Source of the DNA: Corynebacterium faecale
GTDB lineage: Bacteria > Actinomycetota > Actinomycetes > Mycobacteriales > Mycobacteriaceae
Assembly (NCBI RefSeq): GCF_030408735.1
Contig: NZ_CP047204.1
Coordinates: forward strand, 992,001-1,056,000
Direction of reading: 5' to 3'
DNA length: 64,000 bases
This document shows positions 3,443 through 11,435 of the stretch, one piece after another (within the stretch, counting starts at the first letter, position 1; the number at the start of each line of letters is the position of its first letter). The position numbers and the translations under genes are program-made. The notes under the pieces were generated by a model. It was not told the origin of the DNA. It made no database searches and worked only from the letters and a program-made list of their open reading frames with translations.

Positions 3443-6094
3443 CTAGAACGATCCTCCGCGGCTTGAATTTCCTCGGCGATTGTCGCTACTGGTGACGTTT
3501 TGGCGAGGAGTAGTAGATTTTGGAGAGTATGTGGACTGAGAACTGTCAGCTGCTTTTTCGATCTCCTCAGCCCGCCTACGGCGCCTTTCCTCACGCTTGC
3601 GTCTTTTGTTTTCGCGCTTCTCTTCCGCTCTTTTTTCTTCGGTTGATATTTCCTGTCGGTGCTGATGTAATTCGTTGGTCATCAAGCCTAGAAACGATGC
3701 AGCTCTCAGACCCAGCGCAACAGGCTGTTCGGTTTGTAGTTTTTCCTCGTGGTCCTTGATATCCATATTTGTCTGAGTGGTTGATCGTTGTGCTTCTTGA
3801 GCAGCCTGTTTTACCAATTCATCTGCTAGGGAAATCTGTTTAGTGCGCTCCGCCGTCGCTCGGGATACCAGCGACATTGCATTAGCCAGGTAAATACGTG
3901 CCTGTGCCTTTACCACGGCGTCATGTGAGGAGATCAGATCTTTGGCGATTTGTATCTGGGACCTGGTGTTGGTCAGTTTTTGATCTATTAATTGGAGTTT
4001 ATGGGCGTGCAACTTAACAGATTCACGGGCGGCTTCGAGCTGCTGGGCAAGCAGATCTTCAGTGTCGATGAGGGAGGAGTAAGCGCTCAGTGGGTTAACA
4101 GCTGCTTGTTCCCGAACTCTATCCAGGGATTCAGAGGAATTCGCAACAGTGGAATCTAGAGTTTCCCAATTTATTTCGGCGCCGTGTTCCAGACCCCATG
4201 CTTTGATTTTTTGAGCTTCCTGTATTTTTTCTTCGACTTCTCCGCTTAAAGTTTCAAAACCGTCGTTTGCTGCGGCGATGTTATTGTCCGCGTGTTCGAT
4301 ACCCAGGAGCAGGGGATCAATGAGTCCGAGAGCTTGTTCGGCCCCTCGTATTGCATTGATAACTCCGGCTCGTTGACCCGCCGGTCTTGCATTCTGCTCA
4401 CGACCGATAGACAGTTGACCTTCAGCCTGCTCGAGAGCTGATTCAGCCAGGGATACATTATCGTTTATTGATTCCAGCATTTCCGGGGCATAGCGGGATT
4501 GGAGATCTAGAAGTGATGCTTGTGCTCGTATGATGCGTGTACGAAGAGAAACTGACTGTTGAGTCAATGCACTGAGTTCAGTGCCTGCGTTAGCTATCAG
4601 ATCCCTGAGAGTGGAGAGTCCTGCTCTTTGTTGATTGACAGCTTCTTCTGCGCGACCACACAGGGAGATGATTTGAATGAGATCTGTCTGCTTTTCCGGG
4701 TTAGATTCGTTGATGGATTCCCGAAAGCGGGTATAGCTTTGGATATTCTGCTGGAGCTTCTGGATTCTTAGGCGAAGATCCTGGATTCTTAGACGGAGCC
4801 TTTGGATTCTTAGGCGAAGATTCTGGATTGTTTGTAGAAAAGAACCTCCTTGCCCAGATGGGGTATTAAATCTGGGTGAAGAAGAGGGTTCCTCAAGTGT
4901 AATCCCTGGGTTGGAGAGAGTAATTTTCTGATGAATCTGGAGTGCTTGCTTGAATACACGGTCGGCTTCTTCGGCAGCTTGCTGAATGGAGCGGGTTCGT
5001 AAGGAGCCGAAATCGGCCACAGCAATGTTCAGCTCTTCACGGGACCGGTTCATCAACGCACCAGTAGTAACGATTAGCTCGTCCGCGCGCTTCTCAAGTA
5101 TGTGGACTGGGTAGTCTGCCAATCCTGCATCATTATTGTGCGCGACTTGCCGAACGCTGACTAGTTGTTGCTCTGTGTACTTTTGCCGTCTCTCGGTAAC
5201 TTTACGGAAAAGGTAGACCAGGAGAACGCCCAATAATATGAACACGGAGAAGACTGTGACAAAGGACACCAGGGTGGACCAGAATGAACTCCCACTCTGT
5301 GTGGAATCGGTCCTGGTTGCATTAGCTACGGGCTGCTCGACCTGAACAGGCTCCTCTACTTCGAGGCCTTCTTCGGGTTGGGTGGAATTAGAGGAATCGT
5401 CGCCTTCTGCAAGAGCTACGGGCTGCTCGACCTGAACAGGCTCCTCTACTTCGAGGCCTTCTTCGGGTTGGGTGGAATTAGAGGAATCGTCGCCTTCTGC
5501 AAGAGCTAGGATTTCACCGAGAAAATCATCCCAGGAAAAAGAAGACTCAGCTGACCTCGTGGCTGCATCGACAGCAGCGAAACCGGCCTCTGGCCAATCT
5601 GATTCCACCAGTGAGGGGAGTATTGCATCTTCAATATCGTCAAGATCAGACTCTGACCAGGTTCCGGCGGTGGTATCGGCACTCAGTCCAAATTGTCGGT
5701 CCTCGGTTGCTATAGCCAGAACGAAAGTGTTTCCTCCACCGTTGGCGTCAACGGCCAGTTCAGCCCACTCGGTGTTTCCGAATCCATCGAAAGATGGCAT
5801 GTATATAATGAAAATCGATTTCTGATGCTCTATTAGTAATTGCTGAATTGAGCTTCCAAGTTCGGTGTTTTGTTCGGGTGTCAATACACCAGAGGTGTCA
5901 GTCACTCGCGTCGATAGTTGGCCGGGAGCTATCGTGTATTCCGGTAAAACAGCTGGCTGAGCTAAAGTGATTTCAGAATTTTCTCCCACCTGCAATGTCT
6001 GAGCAGATGCAAGGGGAGCGAACAATAAAAGTCCTGCTAAACCCACGAGGGATACTCCACCAGAGAATGTGGAGCGGAAATGAAATGCTTTCAT
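3443..6094 (-). CDS. Secreted/membrane-anchored TPM-domain protein with long coiled-coil region
   Basis: An 883-aa protein. Residues 1-31 form a signal peptide ending ASA; about 55-180 are a TPM domain (seen in YgcG-like and Psb32-like proteins); 198-257 hold an exact 30-residue duplication rich in Glu; 271-296 are a single membrane helix followed by basic residues; the rest is mostly alpha-helical coiled coil, with 7-residue units of the LRLRIQx type near 418-450 and a highly charged Arg/Glu stretch before a GGSF tail. The layout suggests an extracytoplasmic TPM domain tethered to a large cytoplasmic coil. The gene is visibly richer in A+T than its neighbours. Function is unknown; an envelope-stress or scaffold role would be a guess. 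Confidence 0.75.
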   Translation of the reverse strand: MKAFHFRSTFSGGVSLVGLAGLLLFAPLASAQTLQVGENSEITLAQPAVLPEYTIAPGQLSTRVTDTSGVLTPEQNTELGSSIQQLLIEHQKSIFIIYMPSFDGFGNTEWAELAVDANGGGNTFVLAIATEDRQFGLSADTTAGTWSESDLDDIEDAILPSLVESDWPEAGFAAVDAATRSAESSFSWDDFLGEILALAEGDDSSNSTQPEEGLEVEEPVQVEQPVALAEGDDSSNSTQPEEGLEVEEPVQVEQPVANATRTDSTQSGSSFWSTLVSFVTVFSVFILLGVLLVYLFRKVTERRQKYTEQQLVSVRQVAHNNDAGLADYPVHILEKRADELIVTTGALMNRSREELNIAVADFGSLRTRSIQQAAEEADRVFKQALQIHQKITLSNPGITLEEPSSSPRFNTPSGQGGSFLQTIQNLRLRIQRLRLRIQDLRLRIQKLQQNIQSYTRFRESINESNPEKQTDLIQIISLCGRAEEAVNQQRAGLSTLRDLIANAGTELSALTQQSVSLRTRIIRAQASLLDLQSRYAPEMLESINDNVSLAESALEQAEGQLSIGREQNARPAGQRAGVINAIRGAEQALGLIDPLLLGIEHADNNIAAANDGFETLSGEVEEKIQEAQKIKAWGLEHGAEINWETLDSTVANSSESLDRVREQAAVNPLSAYSSLIDTEDLLAQQLEAARESVKLHAHKLQLIDQKLTNTRSQIQIAKDLISSHDAVVKAQARIYLANAMSLVSRATAERTKQISLADELVKQAAQEAQRSTTQTNMDIKDHEEKLQTEQPVALGLRAASFLGLMTNELHQHRQEISTEEKRAEEKRENKRRKREERRRRRAEEIEKAADSSQSTYSPKSTTPRQNVTSSDNRRGNSSRGGSF
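5324..5503 (-). repeat. Exact 90-bp tandem duplication inside the TPM-protein gene
   Basis: Two head-to-tail 90-bp copies (about 5324-5413 and 5414-5503) that I read as identical. They encode residues 198-227 and 228-257, the acidic linker between the TPM domain and the membrane helix. The reading frame is kept. Confidence 0.92.
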
Positions 6095-6166: not shown

Positions 6167-6424
6167 TCAGGCAAGTGACAGGAACAGCTTCTCCATGGCT
6201 TCGCGTTCCTCGGGGCCGGCGTCATCCTGGAAGCATTTCTCCATGCCGGCAGAGATGATGGTGAAGCCCGCGCGGTCCACCGCCTTGGAAGCTGCTGAGA
6301 GTTGTTGGACGATGGTTTTGCAGTCTTCGCCCTCTTCAAGCATCCGGACCACAGCGTTGAGCTGGCCCTGGGCGCGCTTGAGGCGGTTGATGGCGGGACG
6401 CATCTCTTCAGGATCAAGTTTCAT
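6167..6424 (-). CDS. CsoR/CstR-family repressor with Cys pair but no copper-ligand His
   Basis: An 85-aa DUF156-family DNA-binding repressor with the helix motif NRLKRAQGQ at 13-21. Cys35 and Cys64 have the 29-residue spacing of the two family cysteines, but the position of the copper-ligand His (His61 of M. tuberculosis CsoR) is Gly60. That Cys-x-Cys pattern without His matches the persulfide sensor CstR better than copper-sensing CsoR; this is inference from residues only. ATG 6424 was chosen because it gives the standard N-terminus. A palindrome of the family type lies 12-38 bases upstream, implying autoregulation. The gene follows nadS on the same strand. Confidence 0.85.
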   Translation of the reverse strand: MKLDPEEMRPAINRLKRAQGQLNAVVRMLEEGEDCKTIVQQLSAASKAVDRAGFTIISAGMEKCFQDDAGPEEREAMEKLFLSLA

Positions 6425-6435
6425 AAACGGACACC

Positions 6436-6462
6436 ATACCCCAGGGATACGCCTGGGGGTAT
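6436..6462 (-). promoter_or_regulatory. CsoR/CstR-type operator upstream of the repressor gene
   Basis: ATACGCCTGGGGGTAT at 6447-6462 matches the two sites at 10589 and 10625 (ATACCC-N4-GGGTAT) with one change. A second overlapping half-palindrome, ATACCCCAGGGATAC, starts at 6436. Position just upstream of the start codon fits autorepression. Confidence 0.7.
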
Positions 6463-6521
6463 TGTTGTATTCTTCCGGGCAGTATTTACCTTGGTCGTCG
6501 CAAAGCGCACTGCCGGTCCGC

Positions 6522-7604
6522 CTACAGTGACCGCACCGCGGTGACCGCCTCCAGCACCGCCCGGGCAGCCACTGAGACATCGGCGGCGGTATTGGTGGAG
6601 GAGAAGGTAAACCGCACCGAGGTCCTGGCCAGGTCCTCCGACAGGCCGATGGCCAGCAGGACATGGGGCACCTCGCCCGAACCGCAGGCAGATCCCGGTG
6701 AGCAGATGATTCCGCGCTGCTCCAGCTCCAGAAGAACCGCCTCGCCACCGGTGTTCTCAAACACGAATGAGGCGTGACCGGGGAGCCGCTGGGTGGGATG
6801 GCCGGTGAGGTGTGCGCCGTCGATGGTGAGCACCGTGGTGATGAAGTCACTGAGGTTAGGTGTTTCGTTTTCAGGGGCCAGTGTCAGGGCAGTGGCGAAG
6901 GCGACCGCACCGGCAACGTTCTCCGTGCCGCTGCGTCGGCCGCGTTCCTGCCCGCCGCCGTGAATGAGGGGTTCCAGAGGTAGACGGCACCAGAGCGCAC
7001 CGATGCCTTTTGGCGCACCGATCTTGTGACCGGACAAGCTGATGGCATCCACCCCGAGCCCCGAAAGTGGCAATCCAGCGGCTTGAACCGCATCGGTGTG
7101 GAAAGGTGCGTCGGTGGCTGCGGCGAGCTCCCGGATGGGTTGGATCGTGCCGATCTCATTGTTGGCATAGTGGATGCTCACCAGCGTGGTATCCGGCCGC
7201 GATACCTTCGCCAACTCGGTTGCTGAGACCATCCCCTGGCCATCCGGGGTGAGCCAGGTGACCTCGAAATCATGGAATCGCACCAGATAATCCACGGATT
7301 CCAGGACGGCGGAGTGCTCCAGAGGGGTGGTGATGATGTGCCTGCCACGCGGATTGGCCAGGGCGATGCCCTTGATGGCGAGGTTGTCGGCCTCGGTGCC
7401 GCCGGAGGTGAACACCACCTGTGTGGCGCGCCCACCGACCACTCCGGCCACTGCGCGTCGTGCGGCGGTCAGGCCCGCCGCGGCCGCCTCCCCGACGGAA
7501 TGCGGGCTCGACGGGTTCCCGAAGTGAGTGGTCAGGTACGGCCACATGGCTTCTAAAGCTTCACGACGCACACCCGTTGTCGCCGCATTATCCAGGTAGA
7601 GCAT
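6522..7604 (-). CDS. nadS: Cysteine desulfurase of the NAD operon
   Basis: A 360-aa class V aminotransferase-fold cysteine desulfurase. Features seen are the PLP lysine in SLSGHKIGAPKG and the catalytic Cys loop SPGSACGSGE. In this operon context the enzyme is thought to supply sulfur for the [4Fe-4S] cluster of quinolinate synthase NadA. Its ATG overlaps the nadC stop by one base (TAATG), so translation is coupled. It is the last gene of ndnR-nadA-nadC-nadS. Confidence 0.92.
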   Translation of the reverse strand: MLYLDNAATTGVRREALEAMWPYLTTHFGNPSSPHSVGEAAAAGLTAARRAVAGVVGGRATQVVFTSGGTEADNLAIKGIALANPRGRHIITTPLEHSAVLESVDYLVRFHDFEVTWLTPDGQGMVSATELAKVSRPDTTLVSIHYANNEIGTIQPIRELAAATDAPFHTDAVQAAGLPLSGLGVDAISLSGHKIGAPKGIGALWCRLPLEPLIHGGGQERGRRSGTENVAGAVAFATALTLAPENETPNLSDFITTVLTIDGAHLTGHPTQRLPGHASFVFENTGGEAVLLELEQRGIICSPGSACGSGEVPHVLLAIGLSEDLARTSVRFTFSSTNTAADVSVAARAVLEAVTAVRSL

Positions 7605-8449
7605 TATTCGAAATCGAGTCCCAGATCCAGGGCCCGGACAGAGTGGGTGAGGGCTCCGACGGAGATCACATCAACACCCGTTCGGGCGATGTCTGCCACG
7701 GTGTCCAGATTCACCCCACCGGAGGCCTCAACGATTGCGCGTCCACCGATGATCCGGAGGCCTTCTTTCAGATCCTCATTGGTGAAATTGTCCAACATGA
7801 TGGTGTGGATCCCGGCGGCGAGCACGGGTTCGATCTGGTCGATGCGATCCACCTCCACCTCGATGTGGGTGGTGTGGGGCAGGCGGGTCTTCATCTGGGT
7901 GAGGGCTTCGGTGATGGTCATGCCCTGGGCGAGCACGGCCACCAGGTGGTTATCCTTCACCATCACCGCATCTGACAGGGAGGTGCGGTGGTTGTGGCCA
8001 CCGCCGTCACGTACAGCCTGGCGTTCAACAATCCGCAGGCCGGGAGTGGTTTTGCGGGTGTCCACGATGCGTGCCTTCGTGCCCTTGACGGCCTCCACAT
8101 AGCGGGCGGTCTGGGTGGCGATACCCGACATGCGCTGGGTGAAGTTCAAGGCGATGCGCTCGGCACGGAGCAGCGCGCGCGACGGCCCGGTGATAATGGC
8201 CAGGATGGCACCGCGCTCAAAGGCCTCGCCGTCACTGATATGCAGTTCCACCCGTGTCTGTGGATCAACGAGCCGGAAGGCAGCCTCCAACAGTTGGGTG
8301 CCACTGAACATGCCAGGCTCGCGTGCGACCAGGTGGGCGCGGGAGAGGGCTGCAGCCGGAACGAGGTTATTCGAGGTGATATCGCCCCACGGGGCATCCT
8401 CGTTCAGGGCTGTTTCCACCAGTTTGTCAATGCTTCGCTGATCGCTCAT
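7604..8449 (-). CDS. nadC: Nicotinate-nucleotide pyrophosphorylase (quinolinate phosphoribosyltransferase)
   Basis: A 281-aa NadC that converts quinolinate and PRPP to nicotinate mononucleotide, CO2 and PPi. Family motifs visible include DTRKTTPGLR, the GGGHNHR loop, MVKDNHL, EVEVD, MLDN and the EASGGV / SVGALTHS end. ATG 8449 overlaps the nadA stop (TGATG) and gives a normal N-terminus; the frame is open upstream but would run inside nadA. Confidence 0.95.
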   Translation of the reverse strand: MSDQRSIDKLVETALNEDAPWGDITSNNLVPAAALSRAHLVAREPGMFSGTQLLEAAFRLVDPQTRVELHISDGEAFERGAILAIITGPSRALLRAERIALNFTQRMSGIATQTARYVEAVKGTKARIVDTRKTTPGLRIVERQAVRDGGGHNHRTSLSDAVMVKDNHLVAVLAQGMTITEALTQMKTRLPHTTHIEVEVDRIDQIEPVLAAGIHTIMLDNFTNEDLKEGLRIIGGRAIVEASGGVNLDTVADIARTGVDVISVGALTHSVRALDLGLDFE

Positions 8450-9780
8450 CAGTTGGCACCCTTTCCGGAGGCAACGGACTGGTTCGGCACGACAGCGAGC
8501 ATGCGTTCCAGGGCGACCCGTGCCGGATCTGCCACATCTGAACCCACGCTGATCTGGTTCACCACGCGGCCCTCCACGAGCTCCTCCAATACCCACGCGA
8601 GGTAACCGGGGTGGATGCGGTACATGGTGGAGCAGGGGCAGATGACCGGATCCAGGCAGAAGATGGTGTGCTCGGGATACTGGGCGGCCAGGCGCTGGAC
8701 CAGGTTGATCTCAGTGCCGATGGCGAAGGTGGAGCCGGCCGGTGCGGCCTGGATCGCCTTGACGATGAAGTCGGTGGAGCCGGAGGAATCCGCCGCATCC
8801 ACCACGGGCATCGGGGATTCGGGGTGAACCACCACGTGCACATCCGGGTAGTCGCGACGGGCCTTGTCAATTTGTTCCACCGTGAAACGTTTGTGCACGG
8901 AGCAGAAACCATGCCAGAGCAGCACCTTGGCATCCTGCAACTCTGCTTCGGTGTTGCCGCCCAGGGCCTTGTTCGGGTTCCACATCGGCATCTGTTCGAG
9001 TGGGATACCCATGGCCTTGGCCGTGTTGCGGCCCAGGTGCTGGTCCGGGAAGAACAGGACCCGCTGGCCGCGTTCAAAAGCCCACTCCAGAACGGCTGCC
9101 GCGTTGGAGGAGGTGCACACGATGCCGCCGTGCCTGCCAACAAAGCCCTTCAGGGCGGCAGAGGAGTTCATGTAGGTCACGGGGATGACCGGGGCGCGGC
9201 CCTGCTCATCGGCATCGGTGCCGTAGATCTCCTCGAGCTGCTCCCAGCAGTCTTCCACGGAATCCAGGTCAGCCATATCGGCCATGGAGCAACCGGCGGC
9301 CAGGTTGGGAAGGATCACCGACTGCTCATCGGTGGAGAGCAGATCGGCGGTTTCCGCCATGAAGTGGACACCGCAGAAAACAATGGCTTCCGCCTCGGGA
9401 CGGCCCTTGGCTGCACGTGCCAGCTGGAAGGAATCACCGACGAAATCCGCGTGCTGCACCACTTCATCGCGCTGGTAGAAGTGGCCGAGGATGACCACGC
9501 GATCACTGAGGATCGTTTTTGCGGCACGGATGCGTTCGTGGAGTTCCTCTTCGGTGGCGTGCTGATAGGTCTCAGGCAGCACCTGCTGGCGGGGAGCACC
9601 CAGCGGGAGGGGGTCCAGCTTGGATGCCCCGGGGCCGTAATCCGGGGTGACGGTGGGGGCGTCGAGAAGCCACGGGCCATCTTTAAGCTCCGGGGAGCAG
9701 GAAGAGCCGGCGGTGTCACCGGTGGCGATGAGCTGGAGGACGTGGTCGACAGAAGGGTCGATGGTCTGCTGGTTGGTCAT
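8449..9780 (-). CDS. nadA: Quinolinate synthase A
   Basis: A 443-aa NadA that condenses iminoaspartate and DHAP to quinolinate and carries a [4Fe-4S] cluster. Candidate cluster cysteines are in FCGVHFMAETADLL, CTSSNAAAV and the C-terminal CPCSTMYRI. It carries an N-terminal extension of some 75 residues compared with the E. coli enzyme. It is preceded by ndnR (40 bp gap) and followed without gap by nadC. ATG 9780 was chosen as the first start after ndnR. Confidence 0.95.
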   Translation of the reverse strand: MTNQQTIDPSVDHVLQLIATGDTAGSSCSPELKDGPWLLDAPTVTPDYGPGASKLDPLPLGAPRQQVLPETYQHATEEELHERIRAAKTILSDRVVILGHFYQRDEVVQHADFVGDSFQLARAAKGRPEAEAIVFCGVHFMAETADLLSTDEQSVILPNLAAGCSMADMADLDSVEDCWEQLEEIYGTDADEQGRAPVIPVTYMNSSAALKGFVGRHGGIVCTSSNAAAVLEWAFERGQRVLFFPDQHLGRNTAKAMGIPLEQMPMWNPNKALGGNTEAELQDAKVLLWHGFCSVHKRFTVEQIDKARRDYPDVHVVVHPESPMPVVDAADSSGSTDFIVKAIQAAPAGSTFAIGTEINLVQRLAAQYPEHTIFCLDPVICPCSTMYRIHPGYLAWVLEELVEGRVVNQISVGSDVADPARVALERMLAVVPNQSVASGKGAN

Positions 9781-9820
9781 GATGTTTCTCGCTGAAATAT
9801 TGAGGTGGGGTAAGGGGAAT

Positions 9821-10480
9821 TTAACGCTCGGGGTTGTGGGTGAACCTGTAGAGCTTGGGCGGTCGGTGGGGTGTGCCCGCGAGCACTTCGCCGGTGTCCA
9901 CGAGATCGGGTGAGGTGGCCACGGATCTTCGGAAGTTGGCGGCATCGAGTTTTTGTCCGAGGACAGCCTCGTGGACGGCGCGTAACTGCGCGATGGTGAA
10001 AGTTTCCCCGAGGAAGGAGTGGGCGATATCGGCGTATTCCATCTTTGTGCGCAGGCGTTGGAGCGCGTAGTCCACAATGTGGTTGTGGTCGAAGGCCAGA
10101 TCGGGCAGGTGATCGGCGTGGAACCACTGGACGTTCTCACCGGGTTCGGCGCTTTCCACCTCATCGGCGCGGACCAGTGCCCAGTACACAACGGAGATGA
10201 CGCGGCCGGTGGGGGAGCGGTGGAGGTCGCCGAAGGTGTAGAGCTGTTCGAGGTAGCTCGGGTGGAGGCCGGTGGTCTCCCCGAGGGTGCGGGCAGCCAC
10301 CTCCTCGAGTTGCTCATGTTCTGACAACCAGCCGCCCGGTAAAGCCCATCTGCCCAGGTGGGGGTCGCGGGTGCGGGCGATGAAGGGGGTCCACAGTGCG
10401 GGGAGGTCATTGTGGTCGGGGCGCAGCGCGAAGATGACCGTGGATACGGCCACCTGGATAGAGCTATCAGGCCGGGTCAT
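9821..10480 (-). CDS. ndnR: NrtR-type Nudix-related transcriptional regulator of NAD synthesis
   Basis: A 219-aa two-domain regulator: an N-terminal Nudix-like domain (about 1-140) and a C-terminal winged helix. The Nudix box is degenerate (GGWLSEHEQLEEVAARTLGE, lacking the REUxEE signature), as expected for NrtR proteins that bind ADP-ribose or NAD-related ligands rather than hydrolysing them. In C. glutamicum the homologue NdnR represses this same operon. First gene of ndnR-nadA-nadC-nadS; a partial palindrome sits just upstream of its start. Confidence 0.92.
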   Translation of the reverse strand: MTRPDSSIQVAVSTVIFALRPDHNDLPALWTPFIARTRDPHLGRWALPGGWLSEHEQLEEVAARTLGETTGLHPSYLEQLYTFGDLHRSPTGRVISVVYWALVRADEVESAEPGENVQWFHADHLPDLAFDHNHIVDYALQRLRTKMEYADIAHSFLGETFTIAQLRAVHEAVLGQKLDAANFRRSVATSPDLVDTGEVLAGTPHRPPKLYRFTHNPER

Positions 10481-10486
10481 GGCACC

Positions 10487-10511
10487 CCTTATGGTCAGAA
10501 TGACTTTATGA
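10487..10511 (-). promoter_or_regulatory. Candidate NdnR operator
   Basis: An imperfect palindrome TGGTCA-GAA-TGACTT lies 12-27 bases upstream of the ndnR start, where an autoregulatory NrtR site is expected. The call rests on position and symmetry only. Confidence 0.4.
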
Positions 10512-10584
10512 TGGGGACGATCTTACAGTCGCGGTGACCTGAAGTCGATTGTCTAAACGTGTGGGGGTGGCGCGGGCCCGACGT

Positions 10585-10613
10585 TTGAATACCCTGCGGG
10601 GTATAGGTAGTGT
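10585..10613 (+). promoter_or_regulatory. Candidate promoter of the Cys-rich protein gene
   Basis: TTGAAT (10585-10590) and TAGTGT (10608-10613) are separated by 17 bases. The first operator overlaps the -35 and spacer, the second lies just downstream of the -10. Confidence 0.45.
10589..10604 (+). promoter_or_regulatory. CsoR/CstR-type operator 1 upstream of Cys-rich protein
   Basis: ATACCCTGCGGGGTAT, a 16-bp ATACCC-N4-GGGTAT palindrome of the type used by CsoR-family repressors and closely matching the site before the repressor gene at 6447-6462. Confidence 0.7.
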
Positions 10614-10624
10614 GATTCCAGGTG

Positions 10625-10640
10625 ATACCCGGGAGGGTAT
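10625..10640 (+). promoter_or_regulatory. CsoR/CstR-type operator 2 upstream of Cys-rich protein
   Basis: ATACCCGGGAGGGTAT, the same 16-bp palindrome class, beginning 36 bp after operator 1. Two spaced sites suggest strong or cooperative repression. Confidence 0.7.
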
Positions 10641-10685
10641 TGCTGAGTGTGATTGAACCCCATCACTGCGAAGGAGAATCTCCCC

Positions 10686-10859
10686 ATGTGCCGACCCGTC
10701 ACCTGCAAGGCATGCAACAAGACCACCTGGGCTGGCTGTGGCCAGCACATCGATTCCGTCAAGGCCTCTGTCCCACGTGGCCAGTGGTGCACCTGCACAG
10801 AGGCGCAGAAGGCTGCGGCCAGGAAGAATGGTTCTCTGCTCGGCCGTATTTTCGGTTAA
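10686..10859 (+). CDS. Small cysteine-rich conserved protein, putative metal- or sulfur-binding
   Basis: A 57-aa protein with six cysteines (2, 7, 10, 18, 35, 37) and His21, arranged as CRPVTCKAC, GCGQH and QWCTC. I recognise this as a recurrent small actinobacterial protein of unknown function. The cysteine layout could bind zinc, copper or carry a persulfide. ATG 10686 has GGAG 10-13 bases upstream. Two CsoR/CstR-type operators lie upstream, pointing to control by the repressor at 6167-6424. Its TAA overlaps the convergent DUF488 stop. Confidence 0.8.
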   Translation: MCRPVTCKACNKTTWAGCGQHIDSVKASVPRGQWCTCTEAQKAAARKNGSLLGRIFG

Positions 10860-11392
10860 TCAGTGGCAGGGTAGGTGACTGTGGTGTCATCTGCCTTCTC
10901 CTCCACCACCGCCCCGGAGGTCAAGGTCGCCACCGACGTCTGACCTGGGCCCATGATGTGGATGACCTCGGCGCCCCGGGCCAGAAGATGGTCGGTGATG
11001 ATGCGCCGGTGACACCGCCACCACACCGCCTCTGAACACAGCAGCACACTGCGGGCGGGATCCTGCATGAGGTGAGCCACGGCTTTCATAAAATCCCCCG
11101 ACAAGGCATGGTCCGCGTAATTGTGGAAACTACGGTTCTGCCAGAAACCATTGACCTCAAAGGGCACGGTCCTGCTCACCGGACGGTGACCGGTGAGTGG
11201 CTCGGACCATGCGTAGGCGATCCCCACCTCATCTAATGAAGTGCTGAGTTTTTCCTGATCAAAGTGGGGGAACTTCCTCGACCCGGGAAGTTTGCGCACG
11301 TCAATGAGCTTTTCCACCCCGTTCTCCGCCAGCATATCCAGGAAGGTCTGGAGGTTGTGCGTGGAATGTCCGACGGTGAATACGGTGACCAT
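10856..11392 (-). CDS. DUF488 family protein
   Basis: A 178-aa DUF488 protein. The conserved elements are TVGHST near the N-terminus, LIDVRKLPGSRKFPHF, and the cysteine-containing LCSEAVWWRCHRRII block. No activity is established for the family; the conserved Cys/His cluster suggests a metal or nucleic-acid-related role. ATG 11392 is preferred over GTG 11398 as the more usual N-terminus. It is convergent with the Cys-rich gene (four-base stop overlap TTAA) and divergent from the DMT permease. Confidence 0.8.
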   Translation of the reverse strand: MVTVFTVGHSTHNLQTFLDMLAENGVEKLIDVRKLPGSRKFPHFDQEKLSTSLDEVGIAYAWSEPLTGHRPVSRTVPFEVNGFWQNRSFHNYADHALSGDFMKAVAHLMQDPARSVLLCSEAVWWRCHRRIITDHLLARGAEVIHIMGPGQTSVATLTSGAVVEEKADDTTVTYPATD

Positions 11393-11435
11393 ACCCACCC
11401 AGACTAGTGGGGTAGATCGCGTACTTCAGACTACG

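Follow-up and report, generated by a model that had tools for sequence, protein, structure and literature searches.

A predicted CstR-type reactive-sulfur regulon in Corynebacterium faecale and a small cysteine-rich protein gene as its probable member

The stretch analysed here, referred to as the window, comprises 64,000 nucleotides of the 3.15-Mb genome of Corynebacterium faecale (C1:992001-1056000). It carries a cstR-like gene for a CsoR-family repressor and a gene for a 57-residue cysteine-rich (Cys-rich) protein, which very probably belongs to a CstR-type reactive-sulfur regulon (Table 1). The preliminary description of this DNA had suggested such a regulon rather than one for copper, and three lines of sequence evidence support it. 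The reading follows because, of the three perfect operator sites elsewhere in the genome, two stand ahead of genes for persulfide clearance and one ahead of a gene for a major facilitator superfamily (MFS) transporter; because the copper csoR/copA unit has an operator of its own with a five-nucleotide spacer (N5) and the other CsoR-family proteins retain the copper-ligand histidine; and because site, CstR and Cys-rich gene go together in Corynebacterium and in other Actinomycetota.

Table 1. Positions of the features of the window that are discussed in the text
Feature	Position	Strand	Remarks
cstR-like gene	6167-6424	minus	85-residue CsoR-family (DUF156) repressor; Cys35 and Cys64; copper-ligand His replaced by Gly60
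Predicted operator upstream of cstR	6447-6462	none	ATACGCCTGGGGGTAT; one change; 22 bp ahead of the start codon
nadS	6522-7604		class-V aminotransferase/desulfurase; adjoins the repressor gene
Putative promoter of the preliminary description	10585-10613	plus	weak; TTGAAT (10585-10590), 17 nt, TAGTGT (10608-10613); by eye
Predicted operator 1 of the Cys-rich gene	10589-10604	none	perfect palindrome with 4-nt spacer; not retained in relative G205
Predicted operator 2 of the Cys-rich gene	10625-10640	none	perfect palindrome with 4-nt spacer; retained in relative G205
Cys-rich gene	10686-10859	plus	57 residues; no Pfam or NCBIfam model; invariant Cys2, Cys7, Cys10, Cys18, His21 and Cys35
DUF488 gene	10856-11398	convergent with the Cys-rich gene	PF04343

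The repressor, its predicted operators and the genes behind them

The repressor matches PF02583 above the Pfam cut-off (E=2.4e-21), as proteins of the CsoR/RcnR fold do. Its two cysteines and the glycine at the third copper-ligand position were as previously described, the glycine being residue 60. CstR proteins are recognised by two conserved cysteines without the copper-ligand histidine, and this is the arrangement found here; the Cys-His-Cys copper site of CsoR and RicR is missing. Among 84 aligned CstR-like rows (70 distinct, the window's row included) the third ligand position was observed to be Gly, Ala or Ser in all 84 and His in none, whereas the two remaining CsoR-family proteins of the genome both retain His, and the gene for one of them adjoins copA. 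FrmR was the top NCBIfam model at 38.1 bits against a cut-off of 133, with RicR at 31.8 (cut-off 175) and RcnR at 25.7 (cut-off 138). A profile search of the PDB, in which one of the 22 profile rows was copper, placed 7mq3 and 7mq1 first, a few bits above other entries; both carry the depositors' name copper-sensing csoR and we take them to be S. pneumoniae CstR. Regulator and operator are of a known kind.

The palindrome ATACCC-N4-GGGTAT (the N4 site) occurs three times in the window with at most one mismatch, where 0.05 matches are expected and none of 100 shuffles reached three. All three copies lie where they had been reported. The copy upstream of cstR sits between the end of nadS and the start of cstR, and it is probable from its position that cstR represses itself through it. 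Among the 29 CstR genes that were listed for relatives, 12 are preceded by a perfect or one-mismatch site at a distance of up to 300 bp and 17 are not. The two operators of the Cys-rich gene start 36 bp apart, and paired sites 21-36 bp apart were seen in 24 of 90 Corynebacterium Cys-rich promoters, the window's included. A GAAGGAG-like ribosome site was recognised by eye upstream of the open reading frame at 10686. As for the TTGAAT/TAGTGT promoter that had been suggested around these operators, the hexamers are present with a spacing of 17 nt, but a sigma-70 consensus scan of 10480-10900 gave no promoter-like site and the hexamers are not conserved in G205, the relative whose repressor comes closest (87% identity). 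In this comparison with one relative, operator 2 was retained while operator 1 and both hexamers were not and much of the flank had changed.

A scan of the whole genome for the palindrome, which the preliminary description had proposed as a check, returned five perfect sites, two of them ahead of the Cys-rich gene; the pattern read backwards gives one. As an example of the other three, one precedes a metallo-beta-lactamase/rhodanese gene of the persulfide-dioxygenase (PDO) type, behind which come a rhodanese that includes a YgaP-like membrane part and then TauE. Another precedes a CoADR-type gene, whose product joins a pyridine-nucleotide disulfide reductase to a C-terminal rhodanese; the names of both the PDO and the CoADR enzymes are inferred from their domains. 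Judged by sequence, therefore, the predicted operators stand at rhodanese, persulfide dioxygenase, CoA-persulfide reductase and sulfite-export genes, as is typical of CstR. The last site (L012:6109-6124) lies ahead of the MFS transporter gene (6206-7486), and an N4 site is also found upstream of an MFS unit in relatives G042 and G056 (L269 and L270); this transporter is possibly an exporter of a sulfur compound. None of the five sites is directly followed by copA, as a copper CsoR or RicR operator would be, and no formaldehyde or nickel genes were found directly at them.

The copper system of this genome has a site of its own. Upstream of copA, which stands beside the copper csoR (unit C1:354365-357081), the same half sites occur with one additional base between them (ATACCC-N5-GGGTAT). 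In relatives, 29 N4 loci, sampled non-randomly by taking from each of the first genomes the site that headed its list, comprised 20 of the sulfur type (one of these, L103, resting on a weak match of 25% identity over 154 residues), two with MFS only, one of the copper type and six unassigned. The 30 N5 loci, sampled in the same way, comprised 26 of the copper type, none of the sulfur type and four unassigned, where copper type denotes a match to the CopA or copper CsoR of this genome and some of the CopA matches, being 27-34% identical, are perhaps other P-type ATPases. Across Corynebacterium, 253 N4 sites were counted in 106 of 242 genomes and N5 sites were present in 195. Spacer length offers a simple criterion by which the CsoR-family sites of Corynebacterium genomes can be assigned to persulfide or to copper. 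No mention of an N4/N5 split within one genus was found in the open-licence literature, where spacing was not itself a subject of the searches. A second His-bearing csoR was noticed on the smaller contig (G000 C2:88364-103291), with CopA-like matches at two of its three N5 sites; this region is perhaps a copper-resistance island or a plasmid.

Distribution of the site, the repressor and the cysteine-rich gene

We examined the best 80 of 574 actinobacterial loci with a homologue of the Cys-rich gene, each spanning up to 6 kb on either side of it and some being cut by contig ends. An N4 site within 300 bp upstream was observed in 48 of the 80 (42 perfect, six with one mismatch). The 24 kb of upstream stretches hold 48 perfect sites, against 30 in the remaining 877 kb, and neither spacers of 2, 3 or 5-8 bp nor the reversed pattern occurred in those 24 kb. 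Counting perfect sites up to 2.8 kb upstream as well as direct ones, 68 loci have a site; the number rises to 76 when loci with a match, however loose, to CstR, CoADR, PDO or TauE are included. A CstR-like gene was found in 54, whereas the CopA query matched in two. Initial counts for CoADR and PDO (49 and 33 of 80) were tightened to long matches because short stretches of these proteins also match other rhodaneses. Furthermore, six loci carry one common stretch and five of them were removed. Among the 75 collapsed loci, CstR-like genes occur in 49, long CoADR matches in 32 and long PDO matches in 21; at least one of these is present in 58, and long CoADR and long PDO matches occur together in none. 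In two plasmids the Cys-rich gene lies among genes annotated as thioredoxin, metallo-beta-lactamase-fold hydrolase, TauE and rhodanese.

The common stretch (L053, L065, L066, L068, L069 and L072) recurs in five actinomycete genera, with 96-99% identity over 7-12 kb and one copy on a Microbacterium plasmid, and contains a CstR-like gene, the Cys-rich gene and methyltransferase, thioredoxin-domain and CcdA genes. It is probably mobile, the alternative being shared assembly contamination.

Within Corynebacterium, CstR was called from matches with E<=2.3e-13, the next match being at 3.5e-10. The Cys-rich gene was found in 93 of the 242 genomes and CstR in 97; 81 have both and 133 neither (Fisher test 1.7e-34, a value inflated by relatedness). 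The position of the site follows the same division. With at most one mismatch, it lies within 300 bp of 67 of the 78 Cys-rich genes of genomes with CstR and of none of the 12 in genomes without it, and ten of these 12 genomes lack a perfect N4 site altogether. Nine of the 11 exceptions in genomes with CstR have their nearest site 0.39-2.2 kb upstream; the copy on G056 C1 has none in 3.8 kb, and G078, which is cut by a contig end 17 bp upstream, was scored as a miss. These counts took in 90 of the 98 Cys-rich places in the genus, and eight were treated apart: G167 and G168 have a perfect site within 300 bp, a second copy in G036 has two one-mismatch sites, tandem second copies in G203 and G013 have sites 300-363 bp upstream, the contig of G046 ends 72 bp upstream of the gene, and a second copy in G092 and the gene of G218 are without a site.

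Several observations weigh against the proposed regulon. Relatedness inflates the counts above, and a tree of the short protein gives just three independent supported contrasts between CstR presence and site presence; on average 2.8 of them agree and none opposes (89 rows, G078 excluded; sign test p=0.25). The association of CstR with the site is therefore consistent but unproven by independent events. The Cys-rich gene occurs without CstR in 12 of its 93 Corynebacterium genomes and CstR without the Cys-rich gene in 16 of 97. Four of the 80 loci (L034, L035, L067 and L074) have neither a site nor even a loose match to a sulfur gene. In a phylum-wide draw the Cys-rich family was found in 19 of 198 genomes, of which, besides the window's own, just seven carry a gene of the CsoR family at a distance of no more than about 3 kb and six show a site, perfect or with one mismatch, no more than 1.5 kb upstream; the other members drawn show no link to CstR or to the site in the stretch examined. 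The nearby CsoR-family gene is of the Cys-Gly-Cys (Gly60) type in all seven. In a group of large genomes (f3/g5, seven drawn) no Cys-rich match was found, and four of the seven have a Cys-Gly-Cys repressor. It follows from this draw that the family and the regulon overlap and that neither requires the other. In addition, a PDB search with the repressor as a single sequence put M. tuberculosis CsoR (2hh7) on top.

The cysteine-rich protein and the competing explanations

Homologues of the 57-residue protein number 182 by single-sequence search and 3194 by profile search. An alignment of 88 rows shows six residues without variation, Cys2, Cys7, Cys10, Cys18, His21 and Cys35, and C7-x2-C10 with C18-x2-H21 form a pattern that resembles metal ligands. 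Pfam and NCBIfam assigned the window's protein to no family, no Pfam domain was found among the 120 best homologues listed in either search, and the names given at source, where there are any, are hypothetical or uncharacterized. The best Pfam match among 26 family members was DUF5651 at only E=0.0068, and weak sub-threshold matches pointed to DUF702, which we take to be a zinc-finger domain. A sequence search of the PDB gave nothing under E=0.14 and a Foldseek search of the PDB with the AlphaFold model (pLDDT 81.4, pTM 0.54) gave no matches. In this model, with moderate confidence, C7-C10 would lie between two short strands and Cys18 and His21 at the start of a helix; such a fold could bind one zinc and still have free thiols. 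Short relatives of about 38-46 residues were also met (L265, L266 and L267), two of which, L265 and L267, resemble tandem second copies. N4-type sites lie upstream of all three, those of L266 with one mismatch, and a search with the L266 protein matched a protein labelled as fungal (P0191).

The open-licence literature yielded no description of the family, also when searched by family peptide strings, and no report of a recurrent small protein as a member of an actinobacterial CstR-type regulon. Its placement in such a regulon gives a concrete hypothesis of role and a testable inducer for a family of 3194 database proteins.

From the sites and their genes we infer a circuit in which the reduced CstR-type repressor would bind ATACCC-N4-GGGTAT and shut off its own gene and four units, namely the PDO-like/rhodanese/TauE set, the CoADR-like rhodanese fusion, the MFS transporter and the Cys-rich protein. 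A rise in sulfane sulfur would modify Cys35, with Cys64, so that the repressor is released and the units are induced.

Three of the competing explanations concern what reads the sites. A copper regulon of the CsoR/RicR type, with a Cu(I) sensor and the Cys-rich protein as a copper metallothionein, would agree with the family of the repressor and its top single-sequence PDB match, with the richness of the product in cysteine and with the position of the MFS gene that follows an N4 site, about 0.9 kb away from the copper csoR gene. It is nevertheless quite improbable and we rejected it, as the ligand histidine is missing here and throughout the CstR-like rows, the genome has a separate copper CsoR, copper-type genes carry N5 sites while N4 sites precede sulfur genes, and the RicR score falls far below its cut-off. 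We consider it improbable, too, that another factor, or both CsoR-family proteins, read the sites and that CstR merely shares their ecology. The N4 and N5 sites do differ by a single base pair in spacing, and 23 of the 253 N4 sites are in genomes without CstR; however, no Cys-rich gene of a CstR-less genome has a site nearby, most such genomes have no perfect N4 site at all, and the ScCsoR of S. coelicolor binds this motif. Least probable by far is a formaldehyde or nickel/cobalt sensor of the FrmR/RcnR type: FrmR is the best NCBIfam model, yet both scores are far under their cut-offs and the genes directly at the five sites are of other kinds.

The reactive-sulfur regulon thus being the preferred reading, the explanations differ as to what the Cys-rich protein does in it. 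The preliminary description had called it the effector; its membership of the regulon is well supported, but the word is too strong for what can be said of its chemistry. Its most likely role, which we put forward tentatively, is that of a small, probably zinc-structured acceptor or carrier of sulfane sulfur. About as likely, it is a buffer of zinc or another metal, or a structural adaptor, that belongs to the CstR-type regulon and carries no sulfane sulfur. The invariant C7-x2-C10 and C18-x2-H21 pairs, together with Cys2 and Cys35, resemble metal ligands, and both their modelled positions and the sub-threshold DUF702 matches agree with this. However, six invariant candidate ligands exceed the need of one zinc and would leave thiols to spare, and the frequent neighbours are persulfide enzymes, with CopA being rare in the loci. 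As a carrier, the protein would supply a disposal enzyme that is reductive (CoADR) in some loci and oxidative (PDO) in others: among the 75 loci its gene is found near one or the other and in none near both. Since it goes with either enzyme, a shared upstream task, the uptake and handing on of sulfane sulfur, fits best. More speculatively, but with scarcely less weight, the family might be a previously unrecognised class of mini sulfur carriers. Its members would have a head of about 35 residues, probably pinned by zinc, and invariant free thiols; they would be induced through CstR, collect sulfane sulfur and hand it to the CoADR or PDO of the locus. The class would have spread by descent and on mobile stretches, in a genus that separates its copper and persulfide regulons by one base of spacing (N5 and N4).

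Two neighbours in the window were considered and set aside. The desulfurase gene nadS does adjoin the repressor gene, as the preliminary description had pointed out, but this adjacency is not common to the loci examined, the nadS query matching in none of the 80; we therefore do not use it as supporting evidence. The DUF488 gene was rejected as a partner, its query also matching in none of the 80. Elsewhere in the window, the TPM-domain gene at 3443-6094 contains a perfect tandem duplication of a 90-bp unit (5324-5508), which gives two copies of a 30-residue acidic repeat.

Comparison with known systems

The S. aureus and E. faecalis CstR proteins are two-Cys CsoR-family persulfide sensors over rhodaneses, as the window's repressor is predicted to be. 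They belong to a different phylum, and the parts of the sources available name no small Cys-rich protein. In CstR, polysulfide bridges form between the two cysteines, whereas for ScCsoR a persulfide on Cys37 only is reported. E. faecalis CstR also controls a CoA-persulfide reductase (PMC9405070).

The closest circuit is that of S. coelicolor ScCsoR (SCO0620), which was shown experimentally to be a repressor released by sulfane sulfur or polysulfide (PMC7533328). It binds ATACC-n6-GGTAT, is persulfidated at Cys37 and needs Cys66, and its targets are pdo, tauE, rhod and itself, with pdo sites at -48 and -9 (PMC7533328). Both are actinobacterial CsoR-like repressors with two cysteines 29 residues apart, 16-bp sites and, as predicted here, self-control and PDO, TauE and rhodanese targets, and in both a promoter has two sites, that of pdo there and that of the Cys-rich gene here. 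The ScCsoR circuit differs in being described as four genes, and no small Cys-rich protein, CoADR fusion or MFS transporter is named in the sections of the source that were consulted.

Spacing sets the window's system apart from the copper unit in the same genome and likens it to a distant system. The copper csoR/copA unit has a repressor of the same family and the same half sites, but its csoR encodes His at the third ligand position, adjoins copA and uses a 5-bp spacer. In T. thermophilus, TTHA1953 is a CsoR-family repressor of sulfur genes that depends on a 4-bp spacer in its operator: lengthening or shortening the spacer by one base changed the dissociation constant (Kd) about 10-15-fold (PMC10318464). 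Its half sites, TACNNTAC, and its Sox target genes, as described there, differ from those of the window (PMC10318464), but the 4-bp spacer is common to both operators.

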